Assembly: GCF_024282095.1 (NCBI RefSeq)
Contig: NZ_JAMWZS010000018.1
Location: forward strand, 1 to 51,380
Direction of reading: 5' to 3'
Source of the DNA: Nitrosomonas sp.
Lineage (GTDB): Bacteria > Pseudomonadota > Gammaproteobacteria > Burkholderiales > Nitrosomonadaceae
DNA length: 51,380 bases
Under the pieces are notes generated by a model that had not been told where the DNA came from, did no database searches, and was given only the letters and a program-made list of their open reading frames with translations. Positions 37,995 to 41,445 of the stretch are shown piece by piece. Numbering within the stretch: the first letter of the stretch is position 1; every line of letters starts with the position of its first letter. Both the position numbers and the translations under genes were made by a program.

Positions 37995-38036
37995 TTGATC
38001 CAGATCAATGAGAATGACACTGATTCGGCTCATAAT
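37995..38036 (+). promoter_or_regulatory. FNR/Anr-type promoter (class II)
   Basis: TTGAT-CCAG-ATCAA at 37995-38008 is an exact match to the FNR/Anr/Dnr consensus TTGAT-N4-ATCAA. CATAAT at 38031-38036 is a near-perfect -10. With transcription starting near 38043, the box is centred at about -41.5, the class II activating position. The downstream gene begins at 38066 with its own ribosome binding site. This predicts activation under low oxygen or nitric-oxide conditions. Confidence 0.8.
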
Positions 38037-38065
38037 TTCTCTCGTTACATCATAAAGGAGAAAAC

Positions 38066-38200
38066 ATGGATATAAGTTCATCAGAAAAGACACACGATGC
38101 TGGAATACTTAAAAGTATGGGTATCAACATTCTAGTCATCTTCGGTGTGGTGGTGGGTTTGATTATTATATCGTCATACTTTGCTGGCATGTCGAGTTGA
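38066..38200 (+). CDS. 44-residue membrane protein behind an FNR-type promoter (novel small protein)
   Basis: ATG 38066 follows AAGGAG (38055-38060) with 5-base spacing. The frame runs 44 codons to TGA 38198-38200. The N-terminal third is polar (MDISSSEKTHDAGILKSMG). A single hydrophobic helix follows (about 20-39, INILVIFGVVVGLIIISSYF), then a short AGMSS tail. It is predicted to sit in the inner membrane with one pass. I do not recognise the sequence. Strong promoter architecture, ribosome binding site and clean frame argue for real expression. Small single-helix proteins of this size often serve as subunits or modulators of respiratory oxidases or reductases; that role is only an inference. 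Confidence 0.75.
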   Translation: MDISSSEKTHDAGILKSMGINILVIFGVVVGLIIISSYFAGMSS

Positions 38201-38488
38201 TGTGGCGGCGTGAGTGAGTTTAGAGAAGGATCTACGGTCGATGGGTTCGGAGGGTGCATATGTGAGTTTGAAAAAATGCTCCCATGGCAGGGCCTGCGAG
38301 AGTAACTTTACCTGCAGAAGGGATCAATCGACTGTAGACAATTATTGGGTTCAACTACTAATGCGAGTGTAGGAGGAAAAGGCTAACGCAATAATGGACA
38401 AAGTGCAGTTGCTCATAATTTCAACATTCTAATTAAAATTAAGCTTCCGCGATGAGCGTTTTGATACATCTCGACTACAAGCGGACGC
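38201..38488. other. Gap after the small membrane protein gene
   Basis: These 288 bases show no supported gene or clear terminator. An AGGAGG at about 38372 is followed only by a 12-codon frame at 38394, too far away and too short to call. Confidence 0.5.
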
Positions 38489-39645: not shown

Positions 39646-41445
39646 TTATAGAGTCTTCAAATACTCAATAATCGCGAAAGCGCCCTGTTTGTCGCCGGAC
39701 CAGTTGAGGCGGTAAGTTCTTTTGCCTGCCACGATATCCTTGTCATGACCTTTATTGCTTAAAGCCGCGATCGCATTGGTCTGGAACGGATAACCGTCGT
39801 TCTGATCGGTTGCCTGCTGCGGATTCCACGAAAAACCGAGATATTTCTGGTCGTAGTCCAGACGGCTTTTGATGAAGCTGGCCGGGCGTTCATCGGGTAC
39901 TAACAGGTGATAAACAGTCGGCACGGTGCCATTGTGCAAATATGGCGCTTGCGCCCACACGCCGCTTAACGGACGGGCGTTATAGCCGTGGTGCTCAGCG
40001 TTGGGCGACATGAGCAGGTCTTTTTTGCCGGCTAGTGAGACGCTGTCAAATGCAGCGCAGGGCTTGACGTCTTTTCCGTACATCTTGACTGTCGTATCCG
40101 GTGAACAATTTTCATACAACTCTTTGCGCGCGGCATAGTTTAACAACGTGCCGACCACATAAGCGCGTTTCATGCTGGTGCCGAGATTGTCGTACACTTT
40201 GCCGTTCTTGGGTTGATGGCAGTTGGCGCAATGCTCGGCAAATAATGCTTGGCCCTGTTTCGCCAGTGCGATATCGACAGCAAATGGATAAGGGCTGGCG
40301 GGTAAGCCATCGAGCAACTCCTCGGCAAAGGCGGCCACGCGCACGTCCGTTTTCTCCAAACCCAAGGTCAGCATGGCGATCAGGTTGCGATAGATGGGCA
40401 TCGGCACGTTGCCGTTCCACTGGCCACCGCCATTGATGAGTCTTTGATGACTTTCATCCCAACTGGCACGGCGCTTGTCTTGTTCCCACACCGACATAAA
40501 ATCGGTAATGCCCGGTTCCGGCGGTAAAATGACGCTGGCAAACCATTTGGCGATAGGGATATTGCGTGCACCGATATAGCCGTTGATGGCGCTTAAACCA
40601 GTGGCATCGGCCATACCGGGAAAACCGGCGATCATGGCGGATTCAAGGCCTTGATAGTTTTTTGCGACCAAAGCGCTGAAACCGTCATATTCGGCTTCCG
40701 CACGTTGCGCGAATTGCTGGATGGTTTGCTCGGCGTTTTTCTTGAACAATGCAATTTGCGCGGCTTCGTAATCAGCATCAAAGTTTCTGCCGGCAAGTTG
40801 AAAATTGTTATAAAAGTAATTGGGGTTTTGTTGATGGGTTGCATCCAATGCGCTGAGTAATTTCTGCGTCAACAATTTGTATTTGTTGTCACCGGTTTCA
40901 CCTGCATAAGCTTTTTGCAAGGTTTGATACAGCTTGACGCGGAATTGTACAATGTTGAATGTGGTATTCACGCCGCCATCCAGGTAATCGATGGTGCCGT
41001 TTTCCAGCCGCACGCGGCCGATGTGACAGGCACCGCACGTGAAGGAAGCGTAGTCGATGTTGCTTTGCGCTTCAGCCCGGGACAGACCGCTAAAACCGAT
41101 GCCGCGTGCAATCGGATAGGATTTCTGCCGCTCATCGATAAACAGACCCACAGCATCAAGAAAATTTTCCTCGCTGCCCCACAGTTCCGGCGCCAGCTTT
41201 GGCAATAGCTTCAATGCAATATAAGGGATGCCGTCCGCTTCGCTGAAGGCAAAATTGGCAAACCAGTCATAAGCCGTTTGGTGCGATTGAATATAGTCAG
41301 TTTTTTGCTGGGATTTTTGGGTTTGCGCCGCCGGCCAATTGTCCGGTACTGGGCTGACAAAAGCCGGCGGTAGTGGCGCTTCCAGCGGATGGGATTGACA
41401 GGCTACGAGGTTAACGGTGAACAAAGCAGCAATATAGATTCTCAT
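39646..41445 (-). CDS. RoxA-like diheme cytochrome c lipoprotein
   Basis: This 599-aa protein has a lipoprotein signal (VNLVAC, Cys16). Two heme-binding sites are visible: CGACH at 137-141 and CANCH near 405-409. The C-terminal stretch YNARPLSGVWAQAPYLHNGTVPTVYHLL is the same signature as in the protein at 12354-14429, so the two are distant paralogues. It belongs to the MauG/diheme peroxidase/RoxA superfamily. It would act in the periplasm as an oxidase, oxygenase or peroxidase on an unknown substrate. AAGGA precedes the ATG. Confidence 0.83.
   Translation of the reverse strand: MRIYIAALFTVNLVACQSHPLEAPLPPAFVSPVPDNWPAAQTQKSQQKTDYIQSHQTAYDWFANFAFSEADGIPYIALKLLPKLAPELWGSEENFLDAVGLFIDERQKSYPIARGIGFSGLSRAEAQSNIDYASFTCGACHIGRVRLENGTIDYLDGGVNTTFNIVQFRVKLYQTLQKAYAGETGDNKYKLLTQKLLSALDATHQQNPNYFYNNFQLAGRNFDADYEAAQIALFKKNAEQTIQQFAQRAEAEYDGFSALVAKNYQGLESAMIAGFPGMADATGLSAINGYIGARNIPIAKWFASVILPPEPGITDFMSVWEQDKRRASWDESHQRLINGGGQWNGNVPMPIYRNLIAMLTLGLEKTDVRVAAFAEELLDGLPASPYPFAVDIALAKQGQALFAEHCANCHQPKNGKVYDNLGTSMKRAYVVGTLLNYAARKELYENCSPDTTVKMYGKDVKPCAAFDSVSLAGKKDLLMSPNAEHHGYNARPLSGVWAQAPYLHNGTVPTVYHLLVPDERPASFIKSRLDYDQKYLGFSWNPQQATDQNDGYPFQTNAIAALSNKGHDKDIVAGKRTYRLNWSGDKQGAFAIIEYLKTL

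Follow-up and report, generated by a model that had tools for sequence, protein, structure and literature searches.

Small membrane proteins and FNR-type promoters

A TTGATN4ATCAA box centred at about −41.5 marks class II activation by FNR and Anr, and Anr may control ccoM. Cytochrome bd has CydX or AppX as an accessory subunit, a protein of about 37 residues with one helix, and FnrS is a precedent for a regulatory RNA. CcoM has been described as a 36-residue protein of the cbb3 oxidase of Pseudomonas stutzeri (PMC10433244). The 27-residue YohP of Escherichia coli is presented as a stress-linked, stand-alone, single-helix membrane protein that is non-catalytic (PMC12719787).

Here, we analysed a window of 51,380 bases from Nitrosomonas, the term window standing for this whole stretch of DNA. 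A sequence-only reading had proposed an FNR/Anr-type promoter in front of a small membrane protein gene. When the sequence was re-read, the box, the −10 hexamer, the ribosome site and the 44-codon frame all lay where that reading had placed them. The features are:

37995-38008, + strand: FNR/Anr box TTGATCCAGATCAA, centre at 38001.5, conserved across the family
38031-38036, + strand: −10 hexamer CATAAT, at the same spacing family-wide
38055-38060, + strand: ribosome site AAGGAG
38066-38200, + strand: ATG frame of 44 codons, gene of a single-helix membrane protein, predicted N-in
38224-38342, + strand: 3′ element, a 16-pair closing stem around a transposase-gene-like fragment

The predicted transcription start at about 38043 would place the centre of the box at about −41.5.

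The encoded protein resembles CcoM, as the latter is described, in size, in its single helix and in its probable low-oxygen role, and CcoM is its closest functional analogue. However, it fails as a member of that group since the partner is absent: ccoN scored over the cut-off in only one of 85 genomes of the genus, and no cbb3 chain was among the PDB matches. CydX and AppX are likewise small with one helix, but subunit I of cytochrome bd was found in two of the 85 genomes, and the small gene is not conserved beside an oxidase. The likeness to YohP, a stand-alone single-helix membrane protein, is one of description and not of sequence, and YohP is reported to be tied to starvation and stationary phase. 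The promoter agrees with FNR/Anr class II promoters in its TTGATN4ATCAA box, the centre at about −41.5, the −10 hexamer and the presence of an FNR homologue in the genome. It differs from the standard case in that it is predicted here from sequence and that 11 of 73 family members (L025, L026, L028 and eight others) have a second box upstream, the two boxes being 32-43 bases apart.

A gene family of the genus Nitrosomonas

A search with the 44 residues as query found relatives within the same genus. We then used a profile built from 25 members, based on the protein sequence only, which detected the family in 70 of the 85 Nitrosomonas genomes, with 73 loci in total (E ≤ 3e-9) and no internal stop in any of them. 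Among good genomes (at least 90% complete, at most 5% contaminated) 61 of 70 are carriers. The nine good genomes in which the small gene was not found are G001, G036, G113, G090, G098, G109, G008, G094 and G022, and the six poorer ones are G072, G009, G014, G112, G092 and G004. Three genomes harbour second copies, each with its own box (L076/L077 in G020, L009/L078 in G019, L173/L188 in G079).

In the profile search of 125 genomes of the taxonomic family, other genera gave no comparable match (best E 0.189). A search of 399 genomes sampled from the order gave no credible relative outside the genus; two matches at E 0.008 were discarded because they fall within other frames, of 178 and 407 residues. 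A scan of a named collection gave 25 loci, of which 21 were full-length and in Nitrosomonas or beta/proteobacterial records, including N. oligotropha Nm45, N. oligotropha Nm75 and N. marina Nm71; the query was a seven-member alignment of one subgroup, and the scan does not decide the case of N. europaea. Four Clostridia loci matched over 18 residues only and were rejected. The same holds for weak profile matches in the non-carriers G001, G113, G090 and G098, which lacked the combination of a box and a small frame behind it. We also searched the own genome and the 15 non-carriers for the pattern of box plus ribosome site. Leaving a match in G004 aside, no missed member was found, and the inspected matches in G009 run into the frames of other proteins.

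The check suggested by the earlier reading thus has a clear outcome: frame, helix and upstream box are kept together in most of the Nitrosomonas genomes. The scattered absence suggests several losses of the small gene, since the non-carriers that have FNR span 64%-91% identity to the FNR of the own genome (G022 has 93% over a fragment).

The protein and its coding potential

The family proteins have a length of 37-44 residues (73 distinct sequences). All 73 contain one hydrophobic stretch that is long enough for a helix (19-residue Kyte-Doolittle mean 2.06-2.94), and all 73 are richer in lysine and arginine before the helix than after it, which predicts an N-in topology. The structure model of the window protein consists of one helix over residues 7-43, with a mean pLDDT of 81.1. 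The product is therefore very likely an inner-membrane protein of 37-44 residues with one helix, a cytoplasmic N-terminus and a short tail.

Other reading frames offer little competition in the sense direction: frame +1 is open in none and frame +2 in one of the 73 members. On the antisense side, one frame stays open in 35 of the members. The median dN/dS is 0.41 (217 equal-length pairs with dS 0.05-0.8) and the pooled pN/pS 0.51, and some pairs of members have a dN/dS above 1, for instance 1.59 and 1.36. Selection on the family would thus be purifying but moderate, as may be expected if hydrophobic residues are interchangeable. In 25 aligned members M1, V28, L32 and S36 are invariant, while N21 and I25 are nearly so. 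The positions within the helix (V28, L32 and S36, with N21 and I25) make part of it look constrained.

No Pfam or NCBIfam model matched above its curated cut-off, either with the window protein or with the 25 scanned members, which gave scattered weak matches; the best match of the window protein was MtrG (E 0.0061, 16.9 bits vs a cut-off of 27). A profile search against the PDB gave six matches, none of them significant (best E 0.064). That the small frame is a real gene for a single-span membrane protein is strongly supported by its conservation, with 73 places, no stops and one hydrophobic stretch in each.

The small protein is not named in the article texts covered by our searches, although the gene tables of PMC8510549 might list it without a name. 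Passages of PMC6967387 do not settle whether the family is already in print.

The box and the gene form a stand-alone unit

We compared the neighbourhoods of 21 loci (two that could not be oriented were left out). The neighbouring genes mostly differ between carriers, and no operon partner that would point to a target was found in this comparison. When distant species are compared, similarity at the DNA level usually starts some 80-120 bases ahead of the ATG and ends close to the stop, with unrelated sequence on either side. The extent varies between distant pairs, from part of the gene only to about +300. Close species share long flanks, for instance G024/G013, G033/G097 and G080/G000. The unrelated flanks of distant pairs and the mostly different neighbours indicate that the conserved unit is the box with its gene, which stands alone. 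Elsewhere in the window, a cytochrome c protein with a RoxA-like domain (Pfam PF21419) is encoded on the − strand at 39646-41445.

The FNR box is conserved in front of the small gene

The exact pattern TTGATN4ATCAA occurs once in the window, at 37995-38008, where 0.17 occurrences would be expected from the average of shuffled windows. However, 16 of 100 shuffled windows already contained at least one exact box, so that the box of a single window is by itself weak to modest evidence and the comparison across genomes is decisive. An FNR box was present upstream of all 73 members, exact in 60 and with one mismatch in 13, and the half-sites TTGA and TCAA are invariant. Its distance to the ATG is 57-70 nt in 70 members and 89-90 nt in the other three. 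A −10 hexamer (xAxAAT) follows at a fixed spacing from the box, with conservation of its A, A, A and T in 71, 64, 66 and 72 of 73 members, respectively. The centre of the box would thus lie at about −41.5 across the family, with the start site itself placed from the −10 spacing. The 5′ leader is conserved among members as well.

As control, we used 600 open frames of at least 100 residues from 35 context loci, many of which are not real genes. At 50-95 nt upstream, an exact box was found for one of them and a box with at most one mismatch for six. The boxes of members found by the profile are an independent test, because the profile used the protein only. The 73 members are related, and shared descent contributes to the conservation of the box. 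Descent alone is countered by the observation that distant species keep the DNA from box to stop while their flanks are unrelated. The class II FNR-type promoter that had been read from one sequence is thereby upheld as a prediction for the whole family.

We found a close FNR homologue in 82 of 85 genomes of the genus, and in 70 of 70 good genomes. The FNR of the own genome scores over the NCBIfam Fnr cut-off (247.2 bits vs 228) and aligns with a solved FNR-type regulator, including three N-terminal cysteines and a central one, which we take to be the ligands of the [4Fe-4S] cluster. Very probably, the small gene is a class II target of this FNR, which would bind its box at −41.5. The NO-responsive Dnr is reported to bind a similar box (PMC1274295), so that the box alone cannot separate oxygen from NO. 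Cysteines stand at all four FNR positions of the regulator identified here, and this speaks for a sensor of oxygen rather than a Dnr-type sensor of NO. Predicted FNR regulons of wastewater Nitrosomonas (65 targets) and Rhodocyclaceae (30 targets) are reported to contain a large share of hypothetical proteins, for which further analysis was not possible (PMC8510549). The family offers a sharply defined and testable target, with one small gene, one box and one prediction.

A possible accessory helix for low-oxygen conditions

Promoter and gene together suggest that the cell probably produces the small protein under oxygen shortage. When oxygen falls, the FNR of the genome would retain its [4Fe-4S] cluster, bind the box and activate the small gene. 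The transcript would give rise to the single-helix inner-membrane protein, which may use its helix to dock on a membrane complex already in place and adjust how stable or active that complex is at low oxygen. Candidate targets would be the aa3 oxidase, the bc1 complex, complex I and ammonia monooxygenase. We tentatively favour this accessory role, in which the helix tunes a different membrane complex, and consider it quite possible while giving it somewhat less than an even chance. The explanation as a whole, a stand-alone FNR-activated gene whose helix docks on a resident complex, is held with similar reserve and would come slightly closer to an even chance. The small protein would be a dispensable accessory, given that 15 of the 85 genomes gave no copy of its gene.

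The main rival starts from the same gene and the same FNR control. Here the peptide would act freely, lowering membrane potential or fluidity or shifting global metabolism, and so lead to quiescence at low oxygen. YohP is reported to act in this way (PMC12719787), and a small protein with one helix, encoded by a stand-alone gene that is linked to no partner, would suit such an activity. On the other hand, the invariant helix residues and the narrow range of lengths suggest contact with a protein, and we regard free action as rather unlikely.

The sequence downstream of the gene

We also considered that the transcript is a regulatory RNA like FnrS and the reading frame incidental. In favour of this, 11 genomes have a structured 3′ element behind the gene, and the members share a conserved 5′ leader. 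However, internal stops are absent from all members while the other sense frames are closed, and a profile of the protein only found members whose boxes then appeared. Most members have no 3′ element, the stem of that element lacks excess covariation, and the sole Rfam match was far under the gathering score and on the opposite strand. A regulatory RNA is therefore improbable.

The 3′ element has a length of about 119 nt and was found in 11 of 85 genomes of the genus, once in each and always 3′ of the small gene. The model was built from 10 of these 11, which makes the copy in G035 the only independent match, and the search of the 85 genomes was strictly filtered. Eight further genomes gave weak matches elsewhere (E 3e-4 to 0.08). 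The closing stem of 16 pairs is 99.4% paired over 159 cells from 10 sequences, with one double change, and its covariation showed no excess over shuffles (162/500). In addition, the predicted fold of the window copy is no more stable than that of shuffled sequences (z −0.25). Several of the weak matches coincide with the beginning of a frame that resembles a transposase (MARLARVILPGYPHH...), and the window copy reads MAGPARVTLPA. A transposase-like piece of 48 residues matches five plasmid records annotated as transposase, and matched no Pfam or NCBIfam model. The interior of the element thus looks like the beginning of a transposase gene, comprising its first codons and the sequence in front of them. 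A conserved regulatory RNA was rejected for this element on the grounds of covariation, fold and transposase-like interior. It is likely an old insertion or remnant of a mobile element that is now part of the 3′ untranslated region.

In the subgroup of 37-residue proteins (40 members), many genes instead have a GC-rich hairpin after the stop, as judged by eye and with no clear T run, which is possibly a terminator. A terminator-like pattern was found in four of the 73 members.

Small size, hydrophobicity, varied genomic places and occasional second copies, as in the three genomes above, would also suit the hydrophobic toxin in a type I toxin-antitoxin system or a passenger of mobile DNA. Such an origin is hard to reconcile with an FNR promoter that is conserved at every copy, with long flanks common to close species, which point to vertical descent, and with a small gene that has no plasmid match; we consider it improbable as well.

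Candidate partner complexes

Least probable of all is that the protein belongs as a subunit to an established low-oxygen enzyme, namely to a cbb3 oxidase (like CcoM), to cytochrome bd (like CydX) or to NO reductase: the size is like that reported for CcoM (PMC10433244) and FNR/Anr control would fit, but ccoN and bd subunit I are rare as given above, and of the 20 carriers with a single COX1-family match 19 have the aa3 type only, so NO reductase is not needed.

The counts behind this are as follows. Beyond the one ccoN gene over the cut-off, a divergent ccoN-like gene with frames of 563-595 residues was found in G001, G036, G072 and G113 (L130 and L131 for G036 and G113, respectively), and all four genomes are without the small gene. 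A ccoN match of any kind was absent from 80 of the 85 genomes, and the own genome had none at E 1e-30. Subunit I of cytochrome bd (E 1e-10) was absent from 83 of 85, the own genome included. A COX1-family match was present in 84 of 85 genomes, and 20 of 70 carriers had a single one (E 1e-10), of which 19 belong to the aa3-type class and one (G100) to the NO-reductase type. These classes were assigned by length and score, with about 530 residues taken as aa3 and about 450-485 as NO reductase, and not by a subfamily model. The single COX1 match of the own genome is a fragment of 430 residues located where a contig ends; G020, G028 (89% complete), G029, G091 (83% complete), G115 and G116 among the 19 are one-contig genomes. 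An aa3-type match was also present in 15 of 15 non-carriers.

The earlier reading had suggested that the protein may modulate a respiratory complex. Since many carriers show none of the obvious FNR-linked candidates, an obligatory partnership with cbb3, bd or NO reductase is not possible, and the absence of these partners largely refutes membership in a known enzyme as the general role. The aa3 oxidase does not require the small protein, as all non-carriers have an aa3-type match. With the aa3 type in carriers and non-carriers alike, co-occurrence identifies no partner.

The ammonia oxidisers of this genus form nitrous oxide at low oxygen. How Nitrosomonas adjusts to low oxygen is not obvious, given how few of the 85 genomes have a match to ccoN or to bd. 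A more specific form of the accessory-helix reading would be a micro-subunit that is particular to Nitrosomonas and distinct from CcoM and CydX, which FNR switches on and which retunes a core aerobic complex (aa3, bc1 or ammonia monooxygenase). We see this as an unlikely though serious candidate. If true, it would mean low-oxygen adjustment without a dedicated high-affinity oxidase.

Other FNR boxes

In the own genome (2.80 Mb in 81 contigs) we counted 23 exact boxes, compared to three for a reversed-pattern control. Of the 22 outside the window, 14 are within long frames and eight between frames. One exact box lies between the divergent genes fnr and hemN (L111:2101-2284, contig C26). A stricter promoter pattern, searched in 20 genomes (14 carriers and six non-carriers), recurs at the small gene, and most of its other occurrences look sporadic. 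It was also found in the fnr/hemN gap in nine of the 14 carriers and in none of the six non-carriers. An association of the small gene with hemN was nevertheless dropped, since hemN adjoins fnr in the non-carriers G094, G022 and G004, and partly in G014.

A third sequence with a pattern like an FNR box and a −10 hexamer was observed at L205, L210, L220 and L224 (in G083, G096, G029 and G098, respectively), and it may be coding. Finally, several Nitrosomonas genomes seem, by eye, to share an outer membrane protein with a coiled coil and a beta-barrel that recurs directly at FNR boxes or close to them (L123:2268-3286, L163 and L159).
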